Shown here: positions 13,353 through 34,458 of the stretch, piece by piece
Layout of the letters: each line of letters begins with the position of its first letter
Numbering within the stretch: position 1 is the stretch's first letter
Source: Ahniella affigens
Lineage (GTDB): Bacteria; Pseudomonadota; Gammaproteobacteria; Xanthomonadales; Ahniellaceae
Length of the DNA: 64,000 nucleotides
Assembly: GCF_003015185.1 (NCBI RefSeq)
Contig: NZ_CP027860.1
Coordinates: forward strand, 4,805,001 to 4,869,000
Direction of reading: 5' to 3'
Program-made: the position numbers and the translations under genes
The notes under the pieces: generated by a model
What the model was told of the DNA's origin: nothing
The model's input: only the letters and a program-made list of their open reading frames with translations
Database searches by the model: none

Positions 13353-15899
13353 TCAGTCCGCGTCCACTGGTGCCAACAATTCAGTCGCCAAAACCTGCCG
13401 GGCCTGGATCAACTCGCCCTCGGCGATCGGGACGCCTGCCGTCGCCGCTTCGATCATCGCCTGCGCGAGGACTGGGTGCCGCTGCGGCAGTCCGGCGCGC
13501 GCGATCTGTAGCATCGATTCCAGATGCGTCTTCGCCATTTCGGGCTGCTGCCTGGCGGTAGCAATCCGAGCGCGCTGTCTTTTGGCTTCTGCGGCTAGCA
13601 ATACTGACGGCACCTGCAAGCCTTGATCGTTCGCCTGCTCGACCTGGTGCAGTGATGCCTCAGCCGCTTCCAACTGACCCTGCTGGACTTGCATCCGCGC
13701 CAGCACCAGGCGTGCACGCTCAGAAAAGTAACTTCCCGAACCAAACGATGCCGACATGGCGCTCACGGCCGCTTGCATCGACTCGTTCAAACGCGTTGTG
13801 TCGGCGTCATTTGCAAGCATGATTGCAGCGTGTCGAACCACCCAGAAGTGATCTTCCATTGCGCGTTCTGCCAAGGGCCGACTGAGCGTACTGACGCCCT
13901 CGTTCGAAATGCGAAGCGCCTCGACGGGATCGCCCATGTCCACCAGCAACAAAGCCAGGCTGCCGTGATCACTGAGCCAGTGCGGACCGACGCGCCCCAT
14001 GGCTTGTTCGAGCAGTCCGAGCGAATCGATCAACGTGCGCCGGGCATCCTGATAGCGCCCCTGAAACCAGAGATTCTCCGACAAGTCGTAGCTTACGGCA
14101 TGTTGCCGGTACAAGCGTTGCTGCCCGGTCCAAAGACCGTTTTCGGCCAACTGCGCGCGCAGAATCGCTTCCGCGCGCGCCATTTCGCCAGCTTGACCAA
14201 GCACGCGCGCCTGCTGTGTCGTTTCGATGATGCAGACCGCGTCCGATTCACCGTAGTAGCGCTTGCAATCATCCAACAGGCGTTGGCCTGCCGGAGCGGC
14301 TTCGCGCACTTCCCAACGATTGCGATAGATGGACACCAGCAGCTGCCTGGCCTGAAAGAGCTGCGAACTATCCGCACCATAGCGGGCCTCGCCAATCAGC
14401 ACGGCACGCTCCAGAAAGCGCTTGGCCGACTCATATTCGAGGGCGTTCAGGTGATACTCGCCGATCTGTTGATGGGCGAGCATCAGCGTGTGGGACGATT
14501 GGTTGCGAAGCTGCTCCAGCGTCTGTTCGGTTTCGGCGGCGAATCCACGCGCTTGCTCGCGACGCCCTGCCAACCATTCCAGGCGGGCCAACGCAGACAA
14601 ATACAGGGCCAGATCCGATGCACCGGTTTCACCTGATTGCCGCGCGATCCCGATCGCCGCTTCCAGCAGCGGGCGCGCAGCATCGGGACGTTCCATCTGA
14701 ATATTCGCCTTGGCGAGCGCGTGCAACAAGGCCGCATGGGTGCGCTGATCGGGCGATGGGTGGGCCAGTAGCCGCTGTTGACCACGATCAAGCAGTTCGG
14801 CGACGCCGCCCTCAGCGGTCACCGGCTGGTTGAACAGCTCCACGAAAAAGCCACCAATGGCCGTCGCAGTACCTTCTTCGCGCAGCGTTGCCGAGCGCTC
14901 CTCTGCTTCGCGGCTCTTGCTTTGAAACAGCAGCACTCCCGACAGGACCAGGCTGATCGCCAAGGCCGCAATCAGTGTCGAACTGAATGGATGCCGCCGA
15001 AAACCGAGCACGAGCCGATGCATTTCGCCACCAGCTCGTGCCGACACGGGACGCGCTTCGCGGAGCGCAATCAAGTCGTCCCGAAACAGCATCGCGCTGT
15101 GGTACCGGTCTGCGGCCGCAGGTGCGGTTGCCCGCGCGATGACAGCCGCCAAATCGCTGCGCGAGCTCGCCGGCGCGATCGCAAAACCGTGCTGATTCGC
15201 CCGATTCAGCACGGTTTGCAACGTCAGCCCAAGCTGGAAGATGTCGGTGGCGGTCGTGATCGGTCCACCTTGAAGCTGCTCAGGTGCCGCGTAGCCTGGC
15301 GTCATAATTCGATCGTTGTCACTAACCCGATCGTGCTGTCCGAGCGCAATGCCGAAATCGAGCAACCGCACGCGGCCCTGCTGATCGACCATGACGTTGC
15401 CGGGCTTGATATCCCGATGCACCAGCAGGTGCGAATGGGCGTGTGCAATTGCCGCGCAGAGGTCCTCGAACAGCCGCAACGTTTCGATAAACGACAAGCG
15501 CTGGCGCAACACATAATCGTCGAGCACCAGACCGTCGATGTGCTCCATCGCAAACCACGCACCGCCGCCGGGCAGCTCACCGCCATCAATCAAACCCGCA
15601 ATCCCCGGGTGCGCGAGACGCGCCAGGATCCGACGTTCCTCCTGAAACCGCGCCAACATCTCACCTTGGCGCGGCACGATCTTCAGCGCCACCTTTTGCT
15701 CGAAGCTGGCCTGACTGCGACTAGCGAGATACACGTCGGACATACCGCCCGACCCGAGCAGTCGCTCGATTCGCCACACACCAATCTGCTCACCCGGGTT
15801 CAGTGCCGGCTCGCGGCCGTCCAACATGGCCTGCGGCAGGCGCCCTTGCCAGGCACCACCGGTCTTGAAACGCAGCGTGTGATCGTCGGAATCGCCCAT
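13353..15899 (-). CDS. Transmembrane Ser/Thr protein kinase with TPR-like C-terminal region (kinase 1)
   Basis: An 848-residue eukaryotic-type kinase. The domain (about residues 38-290) has a glycine loop GSGGMSDVY, catalytic K73, HRDIKPGN (161-168), DFGIA (181-185) and APE (205-207), so it should be active. One membrane helix follows near 305-325. The remaining 500 residues are helical repeats of TPR type, predicted to face the periplasm. It lies downstream of a second kinase of the same plan, the ADYC gene and the N-G repeat gene on the same strand. The layout matches kinases known to activate ECF sigma factors (PknS in Xanthomonas citri, PknT in Vibrio); an ECF gene of the relevant type lies at 20.5 kb. 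That partnership is inferred. Confidence 0.88.
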   Translation of the reverse strand: MGDSDDHTLRFKTGGAWQGRLPQAMLDGREPALNPGEQIGVWRIERLLGSGGMSDVYLASRSQASFEQKVALKIVPRQGEMLARFQEERRILARLAHPGIAGLIDGGELPGGGAWFAMEHIDGLVLDDYVLRQRLSFIETLRLFEDLCAAIAHAHSHLLVHRDIKPGNVMVDQQGRVRLLDFGIALGQHDRVSDNDRIMTPGYAAPEQLQGGPITTATDIFQLGLTLQTVLNRANQHGFAIAPASSRSDLAAVIARATAPAAADRYHSAMLFRDDLIALREARPVSARAGGEMHRLVLGFRRHPFSSTLIAALAISLVLSGVLLFQSKSREAEERSATLREEGTATAIGGFFVELFNQPVTAEGGVAELLDRGQQRLLAHPSPDQRTHAALLHALAKANIQMERPDAARPLLEAAIGIARQSGETGASDLALYLSALARLEWLAGRREQARGFAAETEQTLEQLRNQSSHTLMLAHQQIGEYHLNALEYESAKRFLERAVLIGEARYGADSSQLFQARQLLVSIYRNRWEVREAAPAGQRLLDDCKRYYGESDAVCIIETTQQARVLGQAGEMARAEAILRAQLAENGLWTGQQRLYRQHAVSYDLSENLWFQGRYQDARRTLIDSLGLLEQAMGRVGPHWLSDHGSLALLLVDMGDPVEALRISNEGVSTLSRPLAERAMEDHFWVVRHAAIMLANDADTTRLNESMQAAVSAMSASFGSGSYFSERARLVLARMQVQQGQLEAAEASLHQVEQANDQGLQVPSVLLAAEAKRQRARIATARQQPEMAKTHLESMLQIARAGLPQRHPVLAQAMIEAATAGVPIAEGELIQARQVLATELLAPVDAD

Positions 15900-16106
15900 C
15901 GTTGGCGGCAGTTTATCAGGCCGAAAACGCCCTCACACCAGAGACGCGATCATCCGGTTCGGAACCGACGGTTCAGCCTGAATTCGCGCTGTGTACCAGC
16001 ATTTGATGGCAGGTTGGATGCGTTTGCGAAAGAGGCCGCTCAGCCGTGAGCGCGACTCGGCCGGCCACGAGTGTGCCGCCAGAGGTGTGCCGCGACAGGC
16101 TGCCTA

Positions 16107-18854
16107 TCAGTTGCTGTGCGCTGGCGCCGCCCTGACGGAATCATCAAAATCTGCCAGCAGTGCGCCGATTTTGCGCGTGCGATAGTCGTCCGGGCCGAGT
16201 TCGTTGCGAAGTCGGTGTTCGGCATTCCGGAGCACGGTCATCCCGGCCGGATCGCCATTCAACGCCCGGCACGCGCCCAGTAGCGCAAACTGGTATTGCA
16301 TCCGTATCGGCGCATTGGGATTGCCGTCGTCATTCAGATCAAACGCCCGTTGCGCCGAACGACAGTCGGGCTCGGGCTGGCGCTTGGCCAGTTGCACACG
16401 CACAAGGTCGTTCAATGATCCGGACAACATGTTGGTGCTGGGGCCCATCGCTGCCTCCAGACTGGCGATGGCCCGGCGAAACAACGCTTCGGCCTGATCG
16501 AGGCGACCGGCATCGAACTCGACATTGCCGAGCGTCCGCAACGACATCGCGGTGTCGCGGTGATTCTCGCCAAACAGCTGCTCTCTGAGCGCTAGTGCCG
16601 TCTCGGCATAGGGCCGGGCCTCCGCCGACCGGTCCATCGACACCAGCGTGGTCGCGATGTTCGTATTGATCAACGCGATCAACGGATGCTCCGGTCCGAG
16701 TTGCTGCTGCCGGCTGATCAGCACGCTTTGAAACAGGGCCAACGCCTCAGCATAGCGCTGCTCGGAGAATAGGACGGTGGCCAGATTGTTGCGGCTCGAC
16801 ACCGTGTACGAATGCTGATCACCAAACACGGCGAGCGTGAGATCGTACTCTTCGCGGCGCAGCGCCTCGGCTTCGGTCATCGGCCCAGTATGCGACACCA
16901 CTACGGCATGCGCACCGAGCGCACGCGCAAAGAACTCGTTGTCACGCGGCGATTGTCCGCGTTGATGGTCCACGATGGCCTTGGTCAAGACGTAGGCCTC
17001 ATCGGCGCGATCGCGCAGAACGAGCCAAGAGGCATACCGAATCACGCTTTCCTCGGTCCGTCGGTCACGCTCGCCATAGCGCGTGCGCTGGCCCTGCAAT
17101 AGCTGATCGAAGATCGCACCAGCTTCGTCCAGGCGATTCATCGAAACATTGGTCACGGCCCGGCGCAGATCGACCTGATCCATCAGGTCCTGATCGGGAC
17201 GCAAACCGCCTTGGACTGTCGCCCGCAAGGCACCGAGCTCGGCGAGCGATTCGTCGAATTGACCCAACTGATGCAACACAATCGCGTGCGACAGGCGGGC
17301 GCGATCGTTGTCTCGGGTGAGCGCTGCTGATTCCGCCAGCACCGGCAGCGCTTGGTCGAAAAGACCCAGCCCACGGTACGCATCGCCCATCGCGAGCAGC
17401 AATTCGGCGCGTGCGTCCGGCTGGTCCAGCAATTGCTCACGGATGCGGTGACTGCCGGTATCGAGAAGTTCGCGGGCCGTTACCCGTTCACCTTGCGTCG
17501 CCACGGGGTCGGCGAGGGTGAACAGGCCCGTCATGAAATCCAAGGCTGCGCGCGACTTGCGCGCTTCGGCCGCAGCCTGCTCGGCCTGCCACAAAGCGAC
17601 GCCCGCCCCCACCAGCAACGACAGCACAGCAATCATGCCGAGCGCGCTGGCCAACGCGTGGCGCTGCAGGAAGCGGGTCATGCGGTAGCGCAGGTTCCCA
17701 CGCCGCGCCAGGACCGGCTCATGTTGCAGGTAACGCTCAACATCGTCGGCCAATGCGCTGGCAGACGCGTAGCGTTGCTCTGGCTCCTTGCGGAGTGCCT
17801 TCAGAATGATTGCGTCCAGGTCGCCCGATAGGGCGGTACTGAGCTGCTGCGGCTGCAACTGTCGCGCGGCCGCGCAGTCGATGATTTGGGTCGGTGCGTC
17901 CGGATCGCGGTCCAGCACGGCCTGCGAGGGGCGCTGCGGTTCCAGATTCAGAATGGCATGCTCATACGCTGCCGGGGTGGTCGCTGTGATGCCGTAGGGC
18001 TTCCTGCCGGTCAACAGATGAAACAACAGCAAACCTAGCGCATACACGTCGACACTGGTCGTAACCACTTCTCCGCGCAGCTGCTCGGGCGCGGCGAACT
18101 CGGGCGTGAACACGCGGGTCTGGGTGCCTGTGATCGAAGTCTTGGACTCGATCAGCTTGGCAATGCCAAAGTCGAGCAGCTTCACCTGCCCAGTGGCGTC
18201 GATCATGATGTTCGACGGTTTCAGGTCGCGATGTACCACCAGTCGATGATGCGCATGGCTGACGGCCGCACAGACCGTCAAGAAGAGTTGCAGCCGACAC
18301 TCAATGGTCAGCTGTTCGGTATCGCAGTACTGGCCGATCTCGCTGCCTTCGACGTATTCCAGCACCAAGTAGGGCTTACCGTCAGCGCTGACGCCGCCAT
18401 CGAGCAGACGGGCGATATTCGGATGATTCAATGTGGCCAGGATCTGCCGCTCGGCGCGGAAGCGCTGCAGCAGTTCGCCCAAGTCCCAACCTGGGCGCAC
18501 CAGCTTGATGGCCGCCTGCTGTACGTATTCGCCATCGTCGCGCTGCGCCAAATAGACCGCGCCCATGCCGCCCCGACCGATTTCGCGAAGCAGCCGCCAG
18601 GGCCCCAGACGCTGTCCGGCGAGCGCGTTTTGGTGATCGCGATGCAACGCCAGCATGAGGTCAGGCGCCGCGCCACCCAATTCGGTGGCCTCCTGATTGG
18701 CCCGCGCGTCTGCCGCCAGCAGGGCATCCACTTCGGCACGCAACGCTGGTTCGTCGACGCACGCGTGCGCCAGGAACGCTGGGCGCGCCTCGGCGTCGAG
18801 GATCACGGCCTGCTCAAAGAGCGTTCGGATTCGCGCCCAGTCCGGCTTGGGCAT
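16107..18854 (-). CDS. Transmembrane Ser/Thr protein kinase with TPR repeats (kinase 2)
   Basis: A 915-residue kinase. An N-terminal helical segment of about 80 residues (start MPKPDWARIRTLFEQAVILD) is of the kind often found before such bacterial kinases. The catalytic domain spans about 82-370: glycine loop GRGGMGAVY, K117, HRDLKPSN (208-215), DFGIA (228-232) and APE (255-257). One membrane helix near 400-420 (LASALGMIAVLSLLVGAGVALW) precedes a long TPR region with typical repeats such as LFSEQRYAEALALFQSVL. GAGGAG precedes the ATG. It is clearly related to kinase 1, and the two lie in tandem with 207 nt between them, consistent with an old duplication or paired function. Confidence 0.9.
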   Translation of the reverse strand: MPKPDWARIRTLFEQAVILDAEARPAFLAHACVDEPALRAEVDALLAADARANQEATELGGAAPDLMLALHRDHQNALAGQRLGPWRLLREIGRGGMGAVYLAQRDDGEYVQQAAIKLVRPGWDLGELLQRFRAERQILATLNHPNIARLLDGGVSADGKPYLVLEYVEGSEIGQYCDTEQLTIECRLQLFLTVCAAVSHAHHRLVVHRDLKPSNIMIDATGQVKLLDFGIAKLIESKTSITGTQTRVFTPEFAAPEQLRGEVVTTSVDVYALGLLLFHLLTGRKPYGITATTPAAYEHAILNLEPQRPSQAVLDRDPDAPTQIIDCAAARQLQPQQLSTALSGDLDAIILKALRKEPEQRYASASALADDVERYLQHEPVLARRGNLRYRMTRFLQRHALASALGMIAVLSLLVGAGVALWQAEQAAAEARKSRAALDFMTGLFTLADPVATQGERVTARELLDTGSHRIREQLLDQPDARAELLLAMGDAYRGLGLFDQALPVLAESAALTRDNDRARLSHAIVLHQLGQFDESLAELGALRATVQGGLRPDQDLMDQVDLRRAVTNVSMNRLDEAGAIFDQLLQGQRTRYGERDRRTEESVIRYASWLVLRDRADEAYVLTKAIVDHQRGQSPRDNEFFARALGAHAVVVSHTGPMTEAEALRREEYDLTLAVFGDQHSYTVSSRNNLATVLFSEQRYAEALALFQSVLISRQQQLGPEHPLIALINTNIATTLVSMDRSAEARPYAETALALREQLFGENHRDTAMSLRTLGNVEFDAGRLDQAEALFRRAIASLEAAMGPSTNMLSGSLNDLVRVQLAKRQPEPDCRSAQRAFDLNDDGNPNAPIRMQYQFALLGACRALNGDPAGMTVLRNAEHRLRNELGPDDYRTRKIGALLADFDDSVRAAPAHSN

Positions 18855-18879
18855 AGAGGCTCCTCAAATGCGACGGGGC

Positions 18880-18919
18880 GCACTGCCGCGCCGCCTCATT
18901 ATGAACCCGGCGGCAGTGC
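18880..18919. other. Hairpin between the ADYC gene and kinase 2
   Basis: GCACTGCCG (18880-18888) pairs with CGGCAGTGC (18911-18919). It sits just upstream of the kinase 2 start on the leftward strand and has no T run. It may slow or partly end transcription arriving from the ADYC gene. Confidence 0.35.
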
Positions 18920-18975
18920 ATCGGAAAGATACCCGTGGTTCATAGATGTCGCCAAGTACAGCGCGCGACGCTCGT

Positions 18976-19791
18976 TCACTGATGCGAAGCGGTCAGCTTG
19001 GATCGATTGAACAGCAAAGCCCCGGCCGTGTTGGCAGTCGCATCGTCACAATCCGCGCCACTGGGCGCCTCTGCCAATCTCGGGCAGTTGGTGTGCAAGC
19101 CATCAAGGGTCAGGTTTTCGACGATCCGAGTATGCGCGACGCAGACCGCACCGTGCTCGTTCCAGCCGGCTTCAAACGCCATATCGGTTATGGATGCATC
19201 GCTCGTTTGCACGCCGACGCGATCGTAGATGTCGATCGCCGTGCCATTGCGCGTGCTCGGTGCATCGTTGCCACAGTAGTCGGCACGCGCCATATTGATG
19301 CAGGCCGTATAGTAAGGCTCGAGCGACGCGCCGTTGGCCGGCGCGGTACGCCACGGCAGATAGCCCCAACGCAGGCATTTTGCCTCGACGCCGCTGACAC
19401 AGCTGAGACTGAAGCGGGTGGCGTCGGCGACGTAGCGACGATCCTGGTCAAAGTATCCCTGATACACGACGACGCGTGTGTCGCCATACGGATCAGGGGC
19501 GCAGAATGATTGGAACATCAGCGCGCCGGTCGGTCGCAATTGCAGTTGGTACAACCAGACTTCGTCAAAGCGCGCGCTTGGGTCTTTGCTGGCACTCAGA
19601 ACTTGCAGGGTCCCAGCGGTGCCGAGTTGCAGCTCAGCACCGACGAGATCGGCTTGCTCGCGCTCGCGCCCTTGATCATCGGTGACAACCAGGCGCGTGC
19701 CTTCGACGCGAAGCGCCTGTGGATTTGCAGCCAGCAGTGCGCTGCTGACGGCGCCAAGAATCAGACCAACGATGAGGTTTGGCAAGCGCAT
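18976..19791 (-). CDS. ADYC domain-containing secreted protein
   Basis: A 271-residue exported protein with a signal peptide (MRLPNLIVGLILGAVSSALLAA). The segment CINMARADYCGNDAPSTRNG carries the ADYC signature that names this little-studied domain, followed by the conserved GTAIDIYDRVGVQ. Several cysteines (FCAPD, LSCVSGVEAKC, VCVAH, TNCPRL, ADCDD) suggest disulfides in the periplasm or outside the cell. The early part forms beta strands. No enzymatic motif is seen. It directly follows the N-G repeat gene (8 nt) and precedes the two kinases, so these secreted proteins may share a regulon. Function is unknown. Confidence 0.75.
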   Translation of the reverse strand: MRLPNLIVGLILGAVSSALLAANPQALRVEGTRLVVTDDQGREREQADLVGAELQLGTAGTLQVLSASKDPSARFDEVWLYQLQLRPTGALMFQSFCAPDPYGDTRVVVYQGYFDQDRRYVADATRFSLSCVSGVEAKCLRWGYLPWRTAPANGASLEPYYTACINMARADYCGNDAPSTRNGTAIDIYDRVGVQTSDASITDMAFEAGWNEHGAVCVAHTRIVENLTLDGLHTNCPRLAEAPSGADCDDATANTAGALLFNRSKLTASHQ

Positions 19792-19799
19792 GGCACACC

Positions 19800-20318
19800 T
19801 CAGCGTTGGGCCAAGGTCACGCGGACCTGATCAAGCGCGATGCCGGACAGCGGCTCGGCCGTCGCAGCGTTGCGCAGCACGGTGTAGGTGCCTTGTGGGC
19901 TCTGCCCGTTCAGGGTCAAACCATTCACCTTGAGACCGTTCAAGGTCCAGCCGTTCAGTGTCCAGCCGTTAATTTTCATACCGTTCAGAGTCCAACCGTT
20001 CCAGCGAATGCCGTTCCAACGTAGACCGTTGAACTGGATTCCTTGCAGTTGAACGCCCTGGAGAATCGGGCCATTCATGCGTGCACCGTTAAGCCAGATG
20101 CCTTGCAGGCTGATGCCATTGACTGTGAAGCCATTGACTGTGAAGCCATTGATTCTGAGGCCGTTGAGCGTGAGACCGTTCAGCGAGAAGCCGTTCAGCG
20201 AGAAGCCGTTCAACACCGGCCCAGGTTGCCGAGCCCGCGACGGTGAGTCGATGGCGTGGCATTGCGTGGACAACAGAACCAGGGACAAAGTGGCGGCGAG
20301 CAGCGTACGTGTGGTCAT
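19800..20318 (-). CDS. Secreted N-G pentapeptide-like repeat protein
   Basis: A 172-residue protein with a signal peptide ending near CHAIDS. Residues from about 36 to 143 are about 21 tandem 5-residue units of the form [L/I/V/W/F]-[N/Q]-G-x-x, for example LNGFSLNGFSLNGLTLNGLR. A hydrophobic residue followed by N-G every five residues suggests a right-handed beta-helix like pentapeptide-repeat proteins, but the classic A(D/N)LxX consensus is absent. The tail (NAATAEPLSGIALDQVRVTLAQR) is non-repetitive. The DNA shows matching 15-bp periodicity. It is co-oriented with the ADYC gene and divergent from the ECF gene. Function is unknown; surface or ligand binding is possible. Confidence 0.75.
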   Translation of the reverse strand: MTTRTLLAATLSLVLLSTQCHAIDSPSRARQPGPVLNGFSLNGFSLNGLTLNGLRINGFTVNGFTVNGISLQGIWLNGARMNGPILQGVQLQGIQFNGLRWNGIRWNGWTLNGMKINGWTLNGWTLNGLKVNGLTLNGQSPQGTYTVLRNAATAEPLSGIALDQVRVTLAQR

Positions 20319-20490
20319 GACGATTCTCCGAAAGTGGTTTTTGAATTTGGGAGGCTGAATTTGCGCCTCACTAGCACATACGTGACGGTCTTGACTCAGA
20401 GATCATCCGCTGCAAGAAAATTTCGGTTCGGTACACTTGGGCCCGGGGTGGACGATCTGCAGATCTGCCCATTGGCGCTTGAGGTGATCC

Positions 20491-21075
20491 ATGAACGCAT
20501 CTGAACCCGACTCCTCTGGCATTACCCAGCAAGTCGCCCGGGCGGGTGAAAGTCCGACGGCCCGCGGTGAACTCATGCAGCGCGTCCACGCCGATCTGAT
20601 GCGCATTGCCCGCGCCGAGTTAGCCCGACACCGGCGCGGCAATACGTTGAATACCCGTGCGCTGGTCAACGAGGCGTATCTCAAGCTTTTTGCCGGTCAG
20701 GGGGCCGACTTCGAAAGCGGGCATCATTTCTTTGCGACAGCGGCAAAGGCCATGCGCCAGGTCGTGATCGACTACGCCCGCATGCGGCTGGCCGAATGCC
20801 GCGGCGGTGGGGTCACGCCCTTGGGTTTGGACGAGCTCGAAGCGCAGCTGGTGTCAGTCGATGCGCAAGCCGAGCGCCTCGTGGCGATTGATGCAGCACT
20901 CAGCAAACTGGCGGAGTTGGACGAGCGTCTGGCGCTCGTCATGGAGATGCGGTTCTTTGCCGGCATGGAAGTGGAAGATGTCGCCCAGGCACTCGGCGTG
21001 TCGGTGCCCACCATCATTCGCGACACGCGCACCGCCAAGGCCTTTCTACAGCAGCAACTTGACGAGCAGGGCTAA
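20491..21075 (+). CDS. ECF-family sigma factor, kinase-linked (ECF43-like) type
   Basis: A 194-residue sigma-70 factor with regions sigma-2 (about 25-100, including LVNEAYLKLF, HHFFATAAKAMRQVVIDYARMR) and sigma-4 (about 125-185, VEDVAQALGVSVPTIIRDTRTAKAFL). These sequences are those of the long ECF group in which the anti-sigma factor is replaced by control through Ser/Thr phosphorylation. Thr52 and Thr55 (GNTLNTRALVN) sit at the place where the activating threonine was mapped in Xanthomonas EcfK and Vibrio EcfP; exact correspondence needs an alignment. GAGGTGAT precedes the ATG. It is divergent from the N-G repeat and ADYC genes and near two kinases. Confidence 0.88.
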   Translation: MNASEPDSSGITQQVARAGESPTARGELMQRVHADLMRIARAELARHRRGNTLNTRALVNEAYLKLFAGQGADFESGHHFFATAAKAMRQVVIDYARMRLAECRGGGVTPLGLDELEAQLVSVDAQAERLVAIDAALSKLAELDERLALVMEMRFFAGMEVEDVAQALGVSVPTIIRDTRTAKAFLQQQLDEQG

Positions 21076-23668: not shown

Positions 23669-24757
23669 ATGTTGAAGAAGACAGCGTTGCATCCGGCCCA
23701 TCTGGCCGCCCAGGCCAAAATGGTCGACTTCGGCGGCTGGGACATGCCGTTGAACTATGGCTCCCAACTCGAAGAGCACCACTTGGTCCGCCGCGATGCC
23801 GGCATGTTCGATGTGTCGCATATGACCGTCGTGGACCTGCACGGTGACCGGGTGCGCGCCTTCCTGAGCGAGTTGCTGGCCAATGACGTCGCCAAACTCA
23901 AGGTTTCCGGCAAGGCGCTTTACTCCTGCATGCTGACCGAACAGGGCGGCGTCATCGACGACCTGATCGTCTATTACCTGACCGAGTCGTTCTTCCGCAT
24001 GGTCGTCAACGCCGCCACGCGCGACAAGGATCTGGACTGGCTGGCTCGCCACGCAACCCGCTTCGGCGTCACGCTGACCGAACGCCGCGATCTGGCCATG
24101 GTGGCCGTGCAGGGCCCGAATGCCCGCGCCAAAGTCATCGGTCTACTCAGTGAGGGCGTGCGCGCCAAGGTCGAGAAGCTCGGCAAATTTGTCGCTGCTG
24201 AGGCCGACGGCCTGTTTATCGCCCGTACCGGTTACACCGGGGAAGACGGCTTCGAGATCATGGTGCCGGAAACCGACGCCGTGACATTCTGGAACCGCCT
24301 GCTCGACGCCGGCGTGAAGCCCGCGGGCCTGGGCGCCCGCGACACCCTGCGCCTCGAAGCCGGCATGAACCTGTACGGTCAGGATATGGACGAGACGGTA
24401 TCGCCATTCGAAGCCGCGCTCGCCTGGACGGTCAGCCTGGAACCCGCGACGCGGGCGTTCATCGGGCGCGACGCGTTGGCGGAACAGAAGGCCGCCGGCG
24501 TGCCACGCGAGATGATCGGCCTGGTCCTCGACGATAAGGGCGTGATGCGCCACGGCCAGAAGGTGCTGACCTCGGCCGGTGACGGCGAAGTCCTCAGTGG
24601 CACCTTTTCGCCGACACTTGGCAAATCCATCGCATTAGCTCGTGTACCCGCGGGTGCCGGCGACGACCTGAAGGTCGACATCCGCGGCAAGGCGGTGCCA
24701 GTCCGCAAGGTCAAGTTTCCGTTTGTCCGCGACGGCCAGCCTCAACCCGGAATTTGA
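23669..24757 (+). CDS. gcvT: Glycine cleavage system aminomethyltransferase (T protein)
   Basis: A 362-residue tetrahydrofolate-dependent enzyme that releases ammonia from the aminomethyl group held by GcvH and forms methylene-THF. Typical GcvT features: [33 protein letters not shown], the folate-binding Asp region around [37 protein letters not shown], and [20 protein letters not shown]. The ATG at 23669 is preceded by GTGGGA; the frame is open back to 23519 without support. No glycine riboswitch was recognised upstream. gcvH follows by 76 nt, while gcvP is not in the window. Confidence 0.97.
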
Positions 24758-24833
24758 TGCACCGGCTACGCCGCAACGGCTCGAACGCACTATCATTACC
24801 CCATCTGTCCCAACCCTCTAGAAGGCCAAGATC

Positions 24834-25223
24834 ATGAGTGAGATCCCTGGTGACCTGAAGTTTCTGAAATCCCATGAATGGGCCCGGCTGGAAGACAGCG
24901 GCAACGTCACGGTCGGCATTTCCGACCACGCGCAGCGTGCCCTCGGTGACCTGGTCTATGTCGAATTGCCGGCCGTCGGCGATGTGATCGAAGCCGGCAA
25001 CGGCGCCGCGGTGGTCGAGTCGGTGAAGGCCGCCTCCGACGTCTACGCGCCGGTATCGGGCACGGTTGTCGCCGTCAACGATAAGCTCAGCGACAATCCG
25101 GAAACGATCAACGAAGACGCTTACGGCGAAGGCTGGATGTTCGTGCTGAAGCCGAGCAACCCGAGCCAGCTGGACGAGCTGTTGAGTCCGGATGACTATT
25201 CGGAGCAGATCGAAAACGAGTAA
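24834..25223 (+). CDS. gcvH: Glycine cleavage system H protein
   Basis: A 129-residue lipoyl carrier that shuttles the aminomethyl intermediate between the P, T and L proteins. Lys65 in [11 protein letters not shown] is the lipoylation site, in its usual hairpin. The N terminus ([18 protein letters not shown]) and the end ([13 protein letters not shown]) are typical. AGAAGG precedes the ATG, and a strong terminator lies 28 nt after the stop. Confidence 0.97.
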
Positions 25224-25250
25224 TTCTGGTCGTTCGATTTGGATGAACTG

Positions 25251-25282
25251 AAAGGCCCGGTGCAAACCGGGCCTTTTTGTTT
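25251..25282. terminator. Intrinsic terminator between gcvH and queC
   Basis: AAAGGCCCGG and CCGGGCCTTTTTG form a stem with a 5-nt loop. It has a T run for gcvH and an A run that would serve the convergent queC transcript. Confidence 0.85.
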
Positions 25283-25301
25283 CAGGTGATGGGTGACGGC
25301 G

Positions 25302-25967
25302 TCAGCGATAGCGTGTTGGATCGGGCAATCCGGCATCATGAAAGCCTTGCGCGCGCAGTCGGCACGCATCACATTTGCCGCACGCCCGACCCTGGTCATC
25401 GGCCTGATAGCAGCTCACGGTAATGCCATAGTCGACGTCCAGTTCGTGCCCTTTGCGGGCGATATCGGCCTTGCTCATCGCGATCAGTGGCGCATGAATG
25501 CTGATCAGTTCGCCATTGACGCCAGCCTTGGTCGCCACTCGCGCCAGATGCTCAAACGCTTCGATGAATGCCGGCCGGCAATCGGGGTAACCAGAATAGT
25601 CGACAGCATTGACGCCACAGAAGATGTCATCGCTGCCTAGTGTCTCCGCCCAGGCCAAGGCCAAAGACAGCATGATCGTGTTACGCGCCGGCACATAGGT
25701 GACGGGAATACCCTGACTCGGCGCTTCCGGAACGGCGATATCGGCGGTCAGTGCCGAGCCGCCAAAGCGGCGAAGGTCGAGCATTTGGACGTGATGTTCC
25801 ACCGCACCCATCGCTTCGGCAACGCGCTTCGCAGCATCGAGCTCGGCGTGATGCCGTTGACCGTAGTCCACACTCAGCGCATGGCAGACAAACCCCATTT
25901 GCCGCGCAATCGCGAGCGTCAACGCAGAATCCATTCCGCCCGAAACCAGCACAACCGCGTGCTTCAT
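25302..25967 (-). CDS. queC: 7-cyano-7-deazaguanine synthase
   Basis: A 221-residue enzyme that converts 7-carboxy-7-deazaguanine to preQ0 with ATP and ammonia, a step towards queuosine in tRNA. The PP-loop [11 protein letters not shown] lies at the N terminus. Zinc ligands C186, C196, C199 and C202 are seen in [17 protein letters not shown]. The conserved [17 protein letters not shown] segment is intact. The start at 25967 overlaps the upstream gene stop as ATGA; the longer frame to 26114 is antisense-free but unsupported. queD, queE and queF are not in the window. Confidence 0.96.
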
Positions 25968-26389
25968 GCCTGCTGCCCCAGCAGCCAGGCGGCGTAGGCC
26001 ATGAACAACCAGAGCGCGATGCAGCTGATCAAGAACGCGTAGAAGCGATGCCAGACTTTGTTGTACGTCACGTGGATGAAGGCATGAATGGCGCGGGCTG
26101 CAACAAAGGCCCAAGCCATTGGCAGCAGCACGCTCTGATCAAGCTTGGCAACCGCAATCACCACCAGGGTGAAGTAAAAGAGCACCGGCGTTTCGAACAG
26201 ATTCGAGTAGTGGTCCAATGCCTTGGTGTTGCTGAGCAGTTGCGCCGCTTGTACCCGACTCGCCACTTTTTGCGGGTGAATCCGCTTGGCTTTCATTTCA
26301 CCGACCCGATCGGTGTACATCCGAATCCAGACCACAAAGGTGATTGCGGCCAGCGCAAAACCGGGCCAGAAAATTGAATGGGCTGACAT
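25964..26389 (-). CDS. MAPEG-family membrane protein
   Basis: A 141-residue protein with four hydrophobic helices of MAPEG type (eicosanoid and glutathione metabolism membrane proteins). Diagnostic parts are [20 protein letters not shown], which carries the N-x-x-E/x-x-P motif region, and [20 protein letters not shown]. Bacterial members are uncharacterised; glutathione-dependent activity is possible. GGAGT lies 6 nt before the ATG at 26389. It overlaps queC by 4 nt, so they are co-translated, though no metabolic link is evident. Confidence 0.82.
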
Positions 26390-26603
26390 GACGTGACTCC
26401 AGACCTTGAAGCTGCTCATTTTGCCCGCTTGCACACGCCAGGGCGAGCCTCAACATTCATTCTGGCGCATCCAGCCTGAATTCTGTCGGGCTTGGTCACC
26501 GAACCTGCCGAGCAGACCGTTTGGTAGGCGCCGGGAGGTCGACTAGCTAGGCAGGTTTCATTGCCGGTACTGGCGCAGGTCGAGCGAGCGCCGGATCGGG
26601 ACG

Positions 26604-26763
26604 CTAGGGAGGGTCTGAACAAGTCCATCCTGGACTTTCAGACCCGCGATGAGTCCGGCACGTGTCCGGACTCATCGCTCCAGAATCAAGCACTTGCGTG
26701 CTCGATTCTGGGCGGGCCATCCATGGCCCGCATCGCCTCTGAACTTGTTCAGAGGCTCCCTAG
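26604..26763. repeat. 160-bp MITE-like element with five consecutive hairpins
   Basis: The ends are near-perfect 20-bp terminal inverted repeats: CTAGGGAGGGTCTGAACAAG (26604-26623) against CTTGTTCAGAGGCTCCCTAG (26744-26763), two mismatches. Inside are five hairpins in a row: 26611-26645, 26646-26678, 26680-26711, 26712-26731 and 26735-26756, leaving almost no unpaired base. No coding capacity and no clear target-site duplication are seen. It lies between the end of the ECF gene and the MAPEG promoter. Confidence 0.7.
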
Positions 26764-26785
26764 GCCCTCGTCGGATCGCCTTGGA

Positions 26786-27358
26786 TCAATGGCCCTTCAT
26801 GCGCTCGGAGAGCCAGGATCGCGCTTGGTTCCAGTCGCGCTGGGCAGTCCGGAGACTCACCCCCAGCGCATCTGCCGTCTCTTGTTCGCTCAAACCGGCA
26901 AAGTAGCGACACTCAAACACACGCGCAGCTTTCGGGTGTTCAAGCTCCAGTTTGGCAAGCAGGTCGTCCAGCTCGACCATGTCGCTCGCTTCGGCTTCGA
27001 GTTGCGCGTCGACCTTTTCCAGGCCCGTATGCGCAGCACCGGCACCACGTTTGTCGGCCAGCCGCTCGCGCGCGTAGTCGCACAACACCTGGCGCATGAT
27101 GCGGGCAGCGAGATTCAGGAAGTGCTGCTTGGACTCGACCCGCCCGGAAACCGACTCACGAATCCGCAGGTAGCATTCGTGGACGAGTACCGTCGCGCTC
27201 ATGGTGCGGTCGCGGCCGCGGTTGGCGCCTGACAACTGCGCGCCCGCAAGGCGCCGCAAGTCGTCGTAAATCAGGGCGATCAGCCGCGCCGAGGCGTCGG
27301 TGTCGCCACCTTTGAACTCGGCCAGGATGCGGGAAAAATCTCGGGTCGGCGCATTCAT
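26786..27358 (-). CDS. ECF-family sigma factor, kinase-linked (ECF43-like) type (second copy)
   Basis: A 190-residue sigma factor of the same group as that at 20.5 kb: sigma-2 (about 20-100, TVLVHECYLRIRE, KQHFLNLAARIMRQVLCDYARERLADKRG) and sigma-4 (about 130-185, LSEQETADALGVSLRTAQRDWNQARSWL). Thr56 in TMSATVLVHE is at the position expected for the phosphorylated threonine of EcfK/EcfP-like factors (inference). No anti-sigma gene adjoins. It lies 134 nt downstream of a large secreted BNR protein on the same strand, with a hairpin between them. A MITE-like element follows it. Confidence 0.87.
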   Translation of the reverse strand: MNAPTRDFSRILAEFKGGDTDASARLIALIYDDLRRLAGAQLSGANRGRDRTMSATVLVHECYLRIRESVSGRVESKQHFLNLAARIMRQVLCDYARERLADKRGAGAAHTGLEKVDAQLEAEASDMVELDDLLAKLELEHPKAARVFECRYFAGLSEQETADALGVSLRTAQRDWNQARSWLSERMKGH

Positions 27359-27422
27359 GCCGGCATCCTAGCAGGCCTTTGGGTCGGCGCTGAGGTTCGA
27401 ACCGTGACATCGCAACACGAAC

Positions 27423-27446
27423 GCGCCCGGCACTCGTGCCGGGCGC
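27423..27446. terminator. Hairpin between the BNR gene and the ECF gene
   Basis: GCGCCCGGCA and TGCCGGGCGC form a perfect 10-bp stem with a 4-nt loop, 46 nt after the leftward BNR stop. The trailing sequence is only weakly T-rich (GTTCGTGTTG on the leftward strand), so termination may be partial. Confidence 0.55.
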
Positions 27447-27492
27447 GGGACGGTCAGGACCGACTGCAAGATGCAGCCGGTCCGCCTTGGGT

Positions 27493-30429
27493 TCAATCGT
27501 CCCGACCGCGGAGCTTGGGGGCGTCCGGCGCACGCGCGCGAAACGGCTCGGGCGCATCGATCTGCAGGGAACCCTCAGCATGATGACGACCTTGGGTGAA
27601 TTTCAGCGTATAAGCCCCCGGCAGCGCCAACAGACGGTGGCCGAGCCGCACAGATTCCGCGTAAGGGTGCTTGGCCAGTTCGCCCTCAGTGCTCTTTGGC
27701 TTACCGGCCTTTTTCGATGCCGCCGCTTCGGCCTTCAGCGCCAGGGCTTGGTCCACTTGCGCGTTCCACGTCAGCTGGTTGAGCCCCGCTTTGGCGTCCT
27801 GGCTCACGTTCTGCACCGTGTGACCATTACTGTCGACAATCGCAACGGAAACGGTGCCGGCCGCTGCTGCCCAATAGCTCACCGTGACTTGCGGTAGATA
27901 GGCGCTCTCGTCGAACCACAGACTCGGCCGCGCACGCCATTCCCGCGAGGCACTGAGCTTGTCGATGTAGAACACGTGCAGGGGCTCGGCCTGGACCTTA
28001 GCGCTGAGCTCCTGAACGGGCAGCACGTCGATGACGAACGCGCTACGGCCATGCGTCCCCGCGACCAACTCGCGATCGCGCGGATGGACCATCAGGTCAT
28101 GGACGGGCACGTTTGGCAAACCCGAATTCATGACTTGCCACGATTGACCACGGTCGAGTGATACATACACACTGCGGTCGGTGCCGACATAGAGCACATT
28201 CTCGCTGACCGGATCTTCGCGCACGACATTGATTGTTTCCTGCGGCAGATTCGCGGCGATCGACTGCCATGTCTTGCCCAGATCCTCGCTAACCCACAGA
28301 TACGGCGTGATGGAATCTTCACGATAAGCGTTCATCGCCAAATAGGCGCGATCGCGTTGATGGCTCGATGCGACCACGCGCGACACCCACTTGCCAGGCA
28401 AGCCCGCCGACACATTGCGCCAGTCATTGCCACCGCCGGTGGTCACCCAGACTTGGCCATCGTCCGTCCCGGCCCAGATCAAGCCGAACTGCTTCGTAGA
28501 TTCTGAGATGCTGGTGATCGTCGCGAACGGCACGTCGCCACGCACCTTGCTGACGGTCAGATCGTCGCTGATCGCAGTCCAGTGTTTGCCGCGATCCATT
28601 GAGCGGAACAACTTGTTGGCACCGAAGTAGACGATGTCCGGATTGTGCTTGGACAGGACAACGGGCGTGTTCCAGTTGTAGCGCAATGCGGGCTCACCCA
28701 GCTTTTCGCGCGGCCGCACTTCGCCACCACCCTCGCCTTCCTTGCGGTAGTAGCCGAACTGGTAACCGGTGTAGGCGCTGTTGTCGCGCGGGTCTACGGC
28801 TACGTGCATGCCATCACCGCCGCCGATGAACTGGAAGTCCTCGCCGAGTTCCCAGCGGGACTTCGAAGAACCTTTCACTGTGCCATTGTCCTGCAGACCG
28901 CCGTAAACGTTGTAAGGCTCGGCCATGTCCACGTTGATCGTGTAGAACTGCCCCACGGGCTGCGCATCAAGCTTCAGCCAGGTTTTGCCGCCGTCGTAAC
29001 TGATGTCGGCACCGCCGTCATTGCCATTGATGATCCGCTGCGGATTGCTGGTGTCGATCCACCAAGCATGGTGGTCGACATGCACGTCCGGGTCGTTCAG
29101 ACCGCTGAAGGTTTTGCCGCCATCGGCCGAGGTCACCATCGGCACGCCCGTGACATAGATCCGATTGGCGTCGGTCGGGGACACGCGAATCTGGCCGAAA
29201 TAGTACCCGTACGTGTAGGTGACTTCGGTCAGTGGCTTGTCGTGCGTGCGCTTCCAACTCGCGCCGCCATCTTCGGATCGATAGATCTCCAAGCCACGGA
29301 CATCGGCGTTGAACAGAGCCGCTTCAGCATCGTTCAGTGCCGCCACGAGATCAGCGACCTTCAGCTTGTCTGACTTGATATCGGCAATCAGCGACTTGGC
29401 GTCGATGCTAACGTCGAAATCGTTGCTGCGGATGAACGCCTCGATCTCATCGGGGTCCTGGCGCAGGAACTCGTCCTTGCTCATGGTCTTCAGGCGGCGC
29501 GGCGTCAGCGGCCGATCGCCGAGGTCCTGCTCGCTGGCGGGCAGGTCATCCCAGTTGTCGACGCTGGCATAAAGCACACCGGGCGTTGTCGACACCGCGA
29601 GCCCTATGCGGCCAACGTGTTTGCCTTGCGGGAACCCGTTGCCCAGCTTGGTCCAGGTCTTGCCGCCATCAGTGGATTTCCAGACACCGGAGCCTGGCCC
29701 GGATTCATTCAAATTCCAGGGTTTGCGCGAACGCTCCCACGTCGCGGCATAGAGCGTGTCGGATTGATTGGGGTCGAAGGCCAGATCAATGGCACCCGTG
29801 TAGCCTTCGGTCTTCAGGACATGATTCCAGCTCGCGCCGGCATCGTCGCTACAGAGCACACCACGCCGACCACCCTCGCTGTAAAGCTTGCCCAAGGCCG
29901 CCACGCAAACATGGTTGCCGTTCTTTGGGTGCACCACGATCCGGGCAATGCGATCGACATCGGTCAGCCCGGCATGGCGGAAATTCGCACCACCGTCATC
30001 GGACACGAATACGCCCATACCGCCATAGTTGGAGCGGGCGGAATTCGCCTCGCCACTGCCGATCCAAAGACGGTTCGGATTACTTGGATCCACCGCGATA
30101 TCGCCAGTCACCATCGACGGCAACCGGTCTGACAACGGCGCAAAGCTGACGCCATTGTTCGTGGTCTTCCAGACGCCGCCGGTGGCATACGCCAGATAAA
30201 AACTGTATGGCTCGCCGGGCACGACTTCGACATCGACCACGCGCCCGCCCTGGATGGTTGGGCCGATCGAGCGCCAGTTCAGACCATTGAGTTTGGACGC
30301 CGCGACCATTTTCTGATGCGCCGCATACGCCTGCCAATGCGGGTCGTTGGCGTCCTTCGAATCCAGCGCCGGCGCCAACGCCGGAATCAACAATGCAGCA
30401 ATGAAGCCCGCTAGTGGTGTCTTGGACAT
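27493..30429 (-). CDS. Secreted BNR/sortilin-like beta-propeller protein
   Basis: A 978-residue exported protein with signal peptide (SKTPLAGFIAALLIPALAPALDS). Many Asp-box (BNR) motifs of the S-x-D-x-G-x-T/S-W type recur, such as KSTDGGKTWTKLG, RSEDGGASWKRTH, SADGGKTFSG, SYDGGKTWLKL and VSEDLGKTWQSI, implying one or two large beta-propellers as in sortilin/VPS10 and family 74 glycosidases. The C-terminal 180 residues look like an Ig-like domain plus a Lys/Ala-rich linker. Catalytic aspartates of xyloglucanases cannot be assigned, so enzymatic activity is open. GGAGGGAG precedes the ATG at 30429; the frame extends upstream to 30519 without a signal peptide. Confidence 0.82.
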   Translation of the reverse strand: MSKTPLAGFIAALLIPALAPALDSKDANDPHWQAYAAHQKMVAASKLNGLNWRSIGPTIQGGRVVDVEVVPGEPYSFYLAYATGGVWKTTNNGVSFAPLSDRLPSMVTGDIAVDPSNPNRLWIGSGEANSARSNYGGMGVFVSDDGGANFRHAGLTDVDRIARIVVHPKNGNHVCVAALGKLYSEGGRRGVLCSDDAGASWNHVLKTEGYTGAIDLAFDPNQSDTLYAATWERSRKPWNLNESGPGSGVWKSTDGGKTWTKLGNGFPQGKHVGRIGLAVSTTPGVLYASVDNWDDLPASEQDLGDRPLTPRRLKTMSKDEFLRQDPDEIEAFIRSNDFDVSIDAKSLIADIKSDKLKVADLVAALNDAEAALFNADVRGLEIYRSEDGGASWKRTHDKPLTEVTYTYGYYFGQIRVSPTDANRIYVTGVPMVTSADGGKTFSGLNDPDVHVDHHAWWIDTSNPQRIINGNDGGADISYDGGKTWLKLDAQPVGQFYTINVDMAEPYNVYGGLQDNGTVKGSSKSRWELGEDFQFIGGGDGMHVAVDPRDNSAYTGYQFGYYRKEGEGGGEVRPREKLGEPALRYNWNTPVVLSKHNPDIVYFGANKLFRSMDRGKHWTAISDDLTVSKVRGDVPFATITSISESTKQFGLIWAGTDDGQVWVTTGGGNDWRNVSAGLPGKWVSRVVASSHQRDRAYLAMNAYREDSITPYLWVSEDLGKTWQSIAANLPQETINVVREDPVSENVLYVGTDRSVYVSLDRGQSWQVMNSGLPNVPVHDLMVHPRDRELVAGTHGRSAFVIDVLPVQELSAKVQAEPLHVFYIDKLSASREWRARPSLWFDESAYLPQVTVSYWAAAAGTVSVAIVDSNGHTVQNVSQDAKAGLNQLTWNAQVDQALALKAEAAASKKAGKPKSTEGELAKHPYAESVRLGHRLLALPGAYTLKFTQGRHHAEGSLQIDAPEPFRARAPDAPKLRGRDD

Positions 30430-30500
30430 GCGCTCCCTCCAGGAAAGCCCCGACCATATCCAACTTGCGGCGGATTCGCCACGGCAGAAAGGCCCGTGCG

Positions 30501-30550
30501 GACAAACGTCCACAATCATGACAAACGAGAGTCCACGATCATGACAAACG
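30501..30550. promoter_or_regulatory. Direct repeats between BNR gene and M50 peptidase gene
   Basis: GTCCACAATCATGACAAACG (30508-30527) and GTCCACGATCATGACAAACG (30531-30550) are near-identical with a 23-nt period, and GACAAACG also occurs at 30501-30508. The repeats sit in the divergent promoter region and look like tandem operator sites. No regulator can be named. Confidence 0.4.
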
Positions 30551-30622
30551 GGGCATGTCGCGGTTCTGTGCGGGCGCTAGCGTGACCACCAAGTTGCGGT
30601 AGGTCCGCAAGGGCAGGCGTCA

Positions 30623-31729: not shown

Positions 31730-31746
31730 AACCCCGCAGCGAGGAC

Positions 31747-33381: not shown

Positions 33382-33564
33382 GCGCGGTTCTCGTGCTGGT
33401 GTAATGGGCACTTTCGGACGTTGACCGTGTGGATTCCGTAAAGCCGAGACGTGATGATCGTCAGCAATCGTCTCGACAGCGTTTGCGGGGCAAGCACCTT
33501 CGGCGTCCGCCAAGACCGCGCCAGCCGCTATACTCAGCGGCTTTCCTGCCGAATCGGCCTGACC

Positions 33565-34458
33565 ATGAATGCCCTGACGTTTCAAGATGTGATCCAAACC
33601 CTGAATCGGTACTGGGCCGACCAGGGCTGTGTGTTGATCCAGCCCCTGGACACCGAAGTAGGCGCTGGCACGTTTCATCCGGCCACCTTTTTGCGCGCAC
33701 TCGGCCCCGAGCCCTGGCGCGCTGCCTATGTGCAACCGTCGCGCCGTCCGACCGATGGCCGCTATGGTGAGAACCCGAATCGTCTGCAGCATTACTACCA
33801 GTATCAGGTGGTACTGAAGCCAAATCCCGAGGACATTCTCGAGCTCTATATCGGGTCGCTGAAGGCACTCGGCATCGACCCACTGACGCATGATCTGCGC
33901 TTTGTCGAGGACAACTGGGAATCGCCAACACTCGGCGCCTGGGGCCTCGGCTGGGAAGTCTGGCTGAACGGTATGGAAGTCACGCAGTTCACGTACTTCC
34001 AGCAGGCCGGTGGCCTCGATTGCAAGCCGGTTACGGGCGAAATCACGTATGGTCTGGAACGGCTGGCGATGTACCTGCAGAACGTCAACAACGTCTATGA
34101 CCTCATCTGGGTCAAAGGTCCGCAGGGCACGGTCACGTATGGCGACGTGTATCACCAGAACGAAGTCGAGCAGAGCACCTATAACTTCGAACATGCGAAT
34201 GTCGAAGCCTTGTTCAACTGGTTTACGGTCTGCGAACAGGAAGCGCTGAAGCTGGTCGAGAAAGGCCTGCCGTTACCGGCTTATGATCAAGTCTGCAAGG
34301 CCAGCCATAGTTTCAACTTGCTCGATGCCCGCCGCGCGATCAGCGTGACCGAGCGTCAGCGTTACATCCTGCGGGTGCGCACGATCGCGAAAGCGGTCGC
34401 CGAGTGCTACTACGCGCAACGCGAGCGCCTGGGTTTTCCTGGCGTGAAGAAGGCTTGA
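33565..34458 (+). CDS. glyQ: Glycyl-tRNA synthetase alpha subunit
   Basis: A 297-residue class II catalytic subunit of the alpha2beta2 glycyl-tRNA synthetase. The family opening [22 protein letters not shown] is followed by [42 protein letters not shown] and [21 protein letters not shown], which form the active site. Start at 33565, about 30 nt after a TATACT box (33529-33534) without a clear -35. glyS follows after 10 nt. Confidence 0.98.

Follow-up and report, generated by a model that had tools for sequence, protein, structure and literature searches.

A Sigma Factor Branch of Lysobacterales Lacking the Usual ECF43 Phospho-Threonine, Its Predicted Promoter Motif and the N-G Repeat/ADYC Protein Pair

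The window studied here, that is the whole stretch of 64,000 nucleotides (nt) analyzed from the 6.12-Mb genome of Ahniella affigens (G000:C1:4805001-4869000), contains a cluster of five genes coding for a sigma factor of the extracytoplasmic function (ECF) type, two transmembrane Ser/Thr kinases with tetratricopeptide repeats (TPR), hereafter K1 and K2, a protein with the ADYC domain and a protein made of N-G repeats. We favor, with a probability of roughly two in three, the reading that these genes belong to a dedicated regulon of mostly exported proteins, governed by the sigma factor together with its adjacent kinase, in which the N-G and ADYC proteins are partners. It is likely, on the sequence evidence presented below, that the sigma factor directs this regulon through the motif TGATCYC-N16-CGTANG within a single order, the Lysobacterales; that the N-G and ADYC proteins are physical partners we consider probable, if slightly less firmly so.

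A Branch of Sigma Factors without the Usual Phosphosite

The window genome holds 35 strong matches to TIGR02999, of which 34 exceed the cut-off, so that sigma factors of the kinase type are greatly expanded in it; we take TIGR02999 to correspond to group ECF43. The characteristic motif of ECF43 in region 2.2 is QTTA, the second threonine of which (Thr51 of EcfK) is phosphorylated by PknS and PknT, according to the accessible portions of PMC13147305 and PMC8999054. The former portion also gives this threonine as conserved in 88% of ECF43 and reports that EcfK requires either the Thr51 site or Thr106 in the linker.

The preliminary description had assigned the window sigma factor to the phosphorylation-controlled group, with its threonine to be placed by comparison with EcfK and EcfP. 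The protein has indeed lost the acidic DxxD motif typical of ordinary ECF factors, since its region 2.2 reads N-T-R-A without any acidic residue, and no acidic motif occupies the DAED position, as in ECF43. At the position of EcfK Thr51 and of the phosphorylated threonine of EcfP, located from the description of the motif because both proteins lie outside our alignment, it presents Arg56. This acceptor position is Arg in 19, Gly in 3, Gln in 2, His in 2 and Cys in 1 of the 27 aligned members of the subfamily (close relatives at E <= 1e-42), and Thr in none; the 29 paralogues compared, out of the 34 other strong TIGR02999 matches in the window genome, have Thr in 27 cases, Ser in 1 and His in 1. 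The preceding residue, Thr55 in the window protein, is threonine in all 27 subfamily members versus 7 of the 29 paralogues. No Ser or Thr is conserved in the linker among the 27 members (the window protein carries one Thr, in GVTPL, with EcfK again outside the alignment), and the acidic pattern [LI][DE]xx[DE], which reads LDELE in the window sigma factor, is present in 22 of them versus 2 of the paralogues. The subfamily forms one clade against the paralogues (FastTree support 0.88), a branch that, on the evidence of this alignment, has lost the usual phospho-threonine of ECF43.

Because the acceptor threonine is absent, the label of phosphorylation control cannot be transferred as such to the window sigma factor and, having looked for the phospho-threonine of region 2.2 without finding it, we do not file the protein with the phosphorylation-switched type. 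The switch previously envisaged could not work as it does in EcfP; it would either have moved to Thr55 or been replaced by acidic residues.

A second sigma factor of TIGR02999 type, lying about 6 kb away in the window, is of the ordinary kind, with Thr at the phosphosite (SATV; L037). No kinase similar to K1 or K2 was found near it by similarity search of window positions 24001-34000.

A Promoter-Like Motif Associated with the Sigma Factor

The preliminary description had suggested looking for a shared promoter motif upstream of positions 20318 and 20491, the starts of the N-G and sigma genes, and an ECF-like one was found upstream of the N-G gene: TGATCYC-N16-CGTANG at 20377-20405 of the minus strand. 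This is the sole exact match in the window, where matches with two mismatches were no more numerous than expected by chance. The two boxes, with identical spacing, recur upstream of the N-G gene in all ten loci examined, corresponding to ten of the 11 ADYC-bearing genomes of the order and including G022, in which the sigma gene lies on another contig; the eleventh genome (G314) has neither a sigma factor of the subfamily nor the site. The motif is shaped like a -35/-10 pair, a reading that the 16-nt spacer fits.

Scanning of 20 genomes retrieved 63 sites, with no match to the pattern read backwards, and scanning of 30 sigma-less genomes retrieved nine sites in eight genomes, with one backward match. 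The last six sigma-bearing genomes contributed seven sites in four genomes and ten further sigma-less genomes none, while the backward pattern was absent from the 17 genomes of this last scan. Overall, the motif is present in 23 of 25 sigma-bearing genomes (67 sites, from zero to six per genome) versus nine of 41 sigma-less genomes (12 sites, including the three of G019), which corresponds to a P value of 1.9e-8 if kinship is ignored. The extended nine-base form TGATCYCTG, counted by hand, occurs at 41 sites of sigma-bearing genomes and two of G019, the remaining 40 sigma-less genomes lacking it. In two genomes the motif lies past the 3' end of the sigma gene, antisense into it (L177 at 10262 of the minus strand and L178 at 9010 of the plus strand).

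The Genes behind the Motif

We then considered the open reading frames (ORFs) that begin within 140 nt of a site, using a heuristic of our own to recognize signal peptides. A signal peptide-like product follows 55 of the 61 annotated sites, versus 734 of 3914 random positions (19%), drawn from the fetched stretches around the sites rather than from whole genomes, and two of nine sites of sigma-less genomes. The annotated set comprises 61 of the 63 sites, identical ones being kept once; with the separate addition of the window site, the product of which is signal peptide-like, and of the site on contig 19 of G019, the product of which is not, the total becomes 56 of 63. The six annotated sites that fail the heuristic include those of a methyltransferase (L262) and of a K2-like kinase (L188). 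Of the seven sites in the last six sigma-bearing genomes, five pass, one of them (70 residues) doubtfully, and at least three of the seven lead, as judged by eye, to exported proteins of delta-60 or CSLREA-like type (L288, L290 and L292). The median distance from the end of the motif to the start codon is 44 nt.

Grouping of 60 products by similarity yields a delta-60 group of 21, an N-G group of nine (excluding the window) and three trypsin-like proteins, followed by one group of four, two members of which were scanned without a Pfam match, six pairs and singletons. Pfam analysis of 30 downstream proteins recognized DUF5122 in 11 and trypsin in three, with no match in eight; beta-helix, Vps10/BNR, PD40/DUF11, histidine kinase, methyltransferase, alpha/beta hydrolase and carboxypeptidase regulatory-like domains are single cases, and one of all these matches falls below its cut-off. 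The window genome itself has four sites (table 1). Homologues of two of these products also have the motif, that of the 1378-residue protein in G001 (48% identity over 1376 columns) and that of the 896-residue protein in G037 (41% identity over 886). The earlier proposal that the two secreted proteins would be natural targets was right in that the N-G and ADYC genes do lie behind the motif, and too narrow in that the predicted output is a wider, multi-gene regulon of mostly exported proteins. In G327 the motif precedes by 44 nt the start of the K2-like kinase gene (L188, 4512-7271), so that feedback on the kinase is possible and a kinase can itself be a target.

Conservation of the Gene Cluster

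Among 61 relatives, seven have the ADYC protein and 15 the N-G protein, and in all seven ADYC-bearing relatives the N-G gene lies directly upstream of that for ADYC. When 398 genomes of the order are considered, 25 have the sigma subfamily, 11 have ADYC and nine have both (Fisher P = 1.7e-10, ignoring kinship); the sigma gene resides inside the ADYC cluster in eight of these nine, the other being G022. Tahibacter also carries the cluster. The subfamily was found in two of 369 genomes sampled from the class, both within the order. A kinase of the K2 type is part of the ADYC cluster in eight of these 11 genomes with ADYC; G020 and G314 have none in the stretch examined, and G019 has one about 6 kb off. 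In G043 the genes for sigma factor, kinase, N-G and ADYC are consecutive on one strand, with 35 nt between sigma and kinase genes, overlapping N-G and ADYC genes, and the motif within the gap of about 220 nt before N-G. Around the sigma gene itself, 17 of 24 neighborhoods include a K2-type kinase; these 24 were taken from 27 matches after leaving out G008 contig 9, G133 and G162.

The kinases of other clusters score higher to K2 than to K1, for which there is no close counterpart in them, and K1 is probably, by such sequence scores, a local addition. The view that both kinases form part of the core was consequently rejected, the kinases in the other clusters being K2-like by score. Of the co-occurrence in relatives that had been proposed for the genes of the cluster, the part concerning the sigma factor, N-G, ADYC and a K2-type kinase is borne out and that concerning K1 is not; a conserved kinase pair finds no support, the neighboring kinases elsewhere being K2-like, and seven of the 24 sigma neighborhoods have no K2-type kinase nearby.

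The N-G/ADYC Pair beyond the Order

The association of N-G repeats with ADYC extends well beyond these genomes. In the best 80 of 238 ADYC relatives from named genomes, a protein with N/Q-[GAS] repeats of period five accompanies ADYC at 57 loci, within 1.5 kb in 50 and inside the ADYC protein itself in seven, whereas the same test applied to ORFs farther from ADYC was passed by none of 2845. The loci with the pair include alphaproteobacteria, cyanobacteria, a metagenome-assembled genome of Fibrobacteria and Myxococcota; the seven fusions all belong, by title, to Myxococcota or Deltaproteobacteria. The N-G proteins share a signal peptide-like start and, in many cases as judged by eye, a brief xAVxLP-type segment at the C terminus. 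N-G repeat and ADYC constitute a widespread and undescribed protein pair, in which the probable role of ADYC is to bind or cap the repeat of its partner outside the cytoplasm. The sigma motif is found at eight of the 80 loci, each from the order, and is lacking at the remaining 72, which implies that elsewhere the pair is wired to other regulators.

The genes for ADYC in Mesorhizobium (L069, L072, L075, L076, L077 and L080) are preceded by a small protein with S-N-[AGS]-[LV]-T repeats, which in some of these loci are followed by D-P-N repeats, and which amount to a variation on the N-G theme. At several loci of Myxococcota, ADYC comes after a kinase gene (Pfam scan of eight proteins), the adjacent kinase having kinase-nSTAND1-FGE architecture in L129, L134 and L135 and TPR in L120, and TPR-CHAT proteins follow in L129 and L136. 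This vicinity of ADYC to kinase-nSTAND1-FGE or TPR-CHAT proteins recalls conflict or cell-death systems. We had to reject the notion that all the neighbors in Myxococcota that match K1 or K2 are kinases, because Pfam shows no kinase domain in those at L129 10881, L136 10954 and L135 8450, which are TPR-CHAT or TPR proteins.

The AlphaFold2 model of ADYC is confident, with a predicted local distance difference test score (pLDDT) of 95.7 and a predicted template modeling score of 0.91. Foldseek comparison with the PDB gave no match at E <= 0.001, VIA-align reached a best Z of 2.8 over 57-63 residues (comparing mostly model residues 1-106), and the sequence profile had no match in the PDB at E <= 0.1. 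Lacking a convincing relative there, ADYC cannot be given a function by fold, and we claim newness of the fold no further than these searches reach. The statement in the preliminary description that an ADYC/N-G output was undescribed agrees with our survey of the open-licence literature, in which none of the papers listed dealt with ADYC or linked delta-60 proteins to a sigma factor, and none described the function of ADYC, this sigma clade or a delta-60 regulon.

Organization of the Locus

All five ORFs were confirmed at the coordinates previously given, and four of them have Pfam or TIGR matches (table 1). K1 and K2 possess the HRD and DFG motifs and share an architecture of kinase domain, strongly hydrophobic segment (most hydrophobic at residues 307-327 in K1 and 401-422 in K2) and TPR repeats; since this segment separates the kinase domain from the repeats, the latter are expected on the outer side of the cytoplasmic membrane. 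The ADYC protein, encoded by the single ADYC gene of the window genome, contains the ADYC motif and matches its family over nearly the full length (171.2 bits, cut-off 27). Each N/Q-G pair of the N-G protein is spaced exactly five residues from the previous one, and a Pfam scan of this protein gave no family over its cut-off. The sigma gene is divergent from the other four, with the N-G gene on one flank and on the other an ORF that is presumably hemE, taken as such by eye and without a search. Scanning of the operon for sigma-70 promoters and terminators was uninformative.

Table 1. Genes and predicted promoter elements of the cluster, a further sigma factor of the window, and predicted targets of the motif in the window genome
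Feature	Position in window	Strand	Evidence or description
K1, second transmembrane TPR Ser/Thr kinase	13353..15899	-	Pkinase E 1.1e-31 + TPR (Pfam)
K2, transmembrane Ser/Thr kinase with C-terminal TPR region	16107..18854	-	Pkinase E 1.5e-47 + TPR (Pfam)
ADYC-domain protein, signal peptide-like start	18976..19791	-	PF20032 E 3.1e-50
N-G repeat protein, signal peptide-like start	19800..20318	-	22 N/Q-G pairs; C-terminal segment LSGIALDQVRVTLAQR
Predicted -10 box CGTATG of N-G operon promoter	20377..20382	-	16 nt past -35 box, 58 nt before N-G start codon
Predicted -35 box TGATCTC of N-G operon promoter	20399..20405	-	
ECF sigma factor, region 2.2 N-T-R-A	20491..21075	+	PF07638 E 5.8e-36; TIGR02999 161.3 bits, cut-off 126.15
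Second sigma factor of TIGR02999 type	26786..27358	-	
Window-genome target 1			N-G/ADYC operon
Window-genome target 2			1378-residue protein, carboxypeptidase regulatory-like domain
Window-genome target 3			896-residue delta-60 propeller (DUF5122)/IgGFc-binding-like protein
Window-genome target 4			419-residue trypsin-like protein

Proposed Mechanism and Alternative Explanations

In the mechanism that we propose, K2 would sense a condition of the envelope through its outer TPR region and would most likely report it to the sigma factor, by a route other than the usual ECF43 phospho-threonine, replaced here by Arg; the invariant Thr55 is the best candidate for a shifted phosphosite. The sigma factor would then bring RNA polymerase to the TGATCYC-N16-CGTANG promoters, increasing a set of exported proteins, and N-G and ADYC would act jointly outside the cytoplasm. 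That the kinase controls the sigma factor at all we hold to be an even bet. The sequences themselves show the gene clustering, the lost acceptor residue, the motif with its distribution, the signal peptide-like starts of the targets and the pairing of N-G with ADYC, whereas contact between sigma factor and motif, the kinase step and the role of N-G and ADYC are inferred from them.

Could the sigma factor simply follow the scheme of EcfK and EcfP, activated by the adjacent kinases through the usual threonine of region 2.2? Its membership of TIGR02999, the presence of a kinase close by in 17 of 24 neighborhoods and the region 2.2 without an acidic motif at the DAED position, as in ECF43, would agree with this; yet the acceptor threonine is missing in every one of the 27 members, most of which have Arg, the linker offers no conserved Ser or Thr, and seven neighborhoods are without such a kinase, and we regard this scheme as highly improbable. 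A close rival, to which we grant a substantial chance though one short of even, dispenses with phosphorylation: the acidic linker between sigma2 and sigma4 (LDELE) would provide the charge of phosphorylated Thr106 in EcfK, leaving the kinase as a regulated target or a leftover neighbor. The loss of the phospho-threonine, the concentration of the acidic pattern in the subfamily versus the paralogues and the neighborhoods devoid of a kinase all point in this direction, as do the acidic linker residues that the accessible portion of PMC13147305 describes in kinase-less sigma factors and the kinase of L188, which, lying behind the motif, can be a target. Against it stand the kinase linkage retained in most neighborhoods and the invariance of Thr55, rare among the paralogues; the linker residues are putative counterparts of Thr106.

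Two further alternatives concern the motif and the exported pair. The motif might be recognized by a DNA-binding regulator co-occurring with the sigma factor, rather than being the promoter of the latter, given that it is tied to the sigma factor by co-occurrence only and that G019 has sites without a sigma factor of the subfamily. We find this quite unlikely, for two dissimilar boxes at a constant spacing of 16 nt, the second containing CGTA, suggest from general knowledge an ECF promoter more than an operator, and the median distance to the start codon is 44 nt. It is also unlikely, if a little less so, that N-G and ADYC are the sensor of the system, as a periplasmic ligand of the TPR region of the kinase, instead of its output. 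Their genes do lie between those of sigma factor and kinase, on the kinase strand, at several loci, and ADYC adjoins kinases in Myxococcota too; but most other targets of the motif are unrelated exported proteins, and 72 of the 80 ADYC loci have no match to the sigma factor in the stretch examined, so that elsewhere the pair does without it.

The reading that we prefer, a regulon of mostly exported proteins under the sigma factor and its kinase, has to reckon with several observations that weigh against it. G019 has two convincing sites, before the N-G/ADYC genes and before a trypsin-like gene (L028 and L271), without a subfamily sigma factor, the best match in this draft genome (E 5.4e-34) being at the level of paralogues; recent loss of the sigma factor, an assembly gap or takeover by another sigma factor are candidate readings. 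Conversely, G133 and G187 carry the sigma factor and no site, and since the sigma-bearing genomes are related, motif and sigma factor could share descent without contact. About 12% of ECF43 are without the threonine anyway, on the 88% conservation given in the accessible portion of PMC13147305, and seven of the 24 sigma neighborhoods have no K2-type kinase nearby, although three of the seven are on contigs shorter than 14 kb. Our signal-peptide heuristic is crude; the products behind the motif include non-exported or doubtful ones, namely the methyltransferase of L262 and the ORFs of L257, L277 and L178, and L177 is counted among the 55 with an ORF that is doubtful, being antisense to the sigma gene. 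For the protein pair, 23 loci out of 80 do not pass the repeat test; 12 of these are assigned by title to Myxococcota or Deltaproteobacteria, and among the 23 several have weaker repeats and others none visible. The AlphaFold2 model of the N-G protein, with a mean pLDDT of 47.6 and only the last 19 residues near 80, is unusable.

A broader proposition, advanced tentatively and at somewhat less than even odds, combines both sides of the analysis. The sigma clade would have moved its phospho-switch by one residue, to Thr55, or fixed acidic residues in its place, and would have acquired its own promoter code and an almost wholly exported regulon with many repeat proteins; N-G and ADYC would form an exported structure of two parts, widespread and hitherto undescribed, for which no PDB relative was found, encoded by separate genes in proteobacteria and cyanobacteria and by one in some Myxococcota, and wired to Ser/Thr kinase signaling more than once.

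Significance and Comparison with Known Systems

Within this family, few kinase-activated sigma factors have been studied, namely those of Xanthomonas citri, Vibrio parahaemolyticus and Hyphomonas neptunium, and they are explained by phosphorylation of the region 2.2 threonine or of a linker site, as far as the accessible portions of these sources go. A clade without the acceptor in region 2.2 but mostly with a kinase therefore represents a natural mutant for studying sigma switching. The promoter motif makes its regulon predictable from sequence and provides a first context for families of unknown function, namely ADYC, DUF5122 propellers and N-G repeats, together with the concrete hypothesis that N-G and ADYC cooperate outside the cytoplasm.

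The system most similar to that of the window is EcfK/PknS of X. citri (ECF43), which likewise combines a kinase-linked ECF sigma factor with a neighboring transmembrane Ser/Thr kinase and has a region 2.2 without the acidic DxxD motif, EcfK itself having QATE (accessible portion of PMC13147305). It differs in that the position of phosphorylated Thr51 is Arg in the window sigma factor, in that EcfK has Thr106 in the linker whereas the window subfamily has no conserved Ser or Thr there, and in its output, a type VI secretion system in X. citri and, by our prediction, exported proteins here. EcfP/PknT of V. parahaemolyticus (ECF43) also pairs a sigma factor without acidic residues in region 2.2 with a kinase partner; EcfP, however, has STTA, of which the second Thr is phosphorylated, in place of N-T-R-A, and acts in polymyxin resistance (accessible portion of PMC8999054).

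Regarding the exported pair, the N-G protein shares a five-residue period with pentapeptide-repeat proteins (PF13599) but matches that family with only 17.3 bits, below the cut-off of 38, and is distinguished by N/Q-G at fixed phase and a signal peptide-like start, its own structural model not being a confident one. Among ADYC proteins (PF20032), that of the window is paired with a separate N-G protein, whereas at the seven loci of Myxococcota type the repeat lies within the ADYC protein itself.

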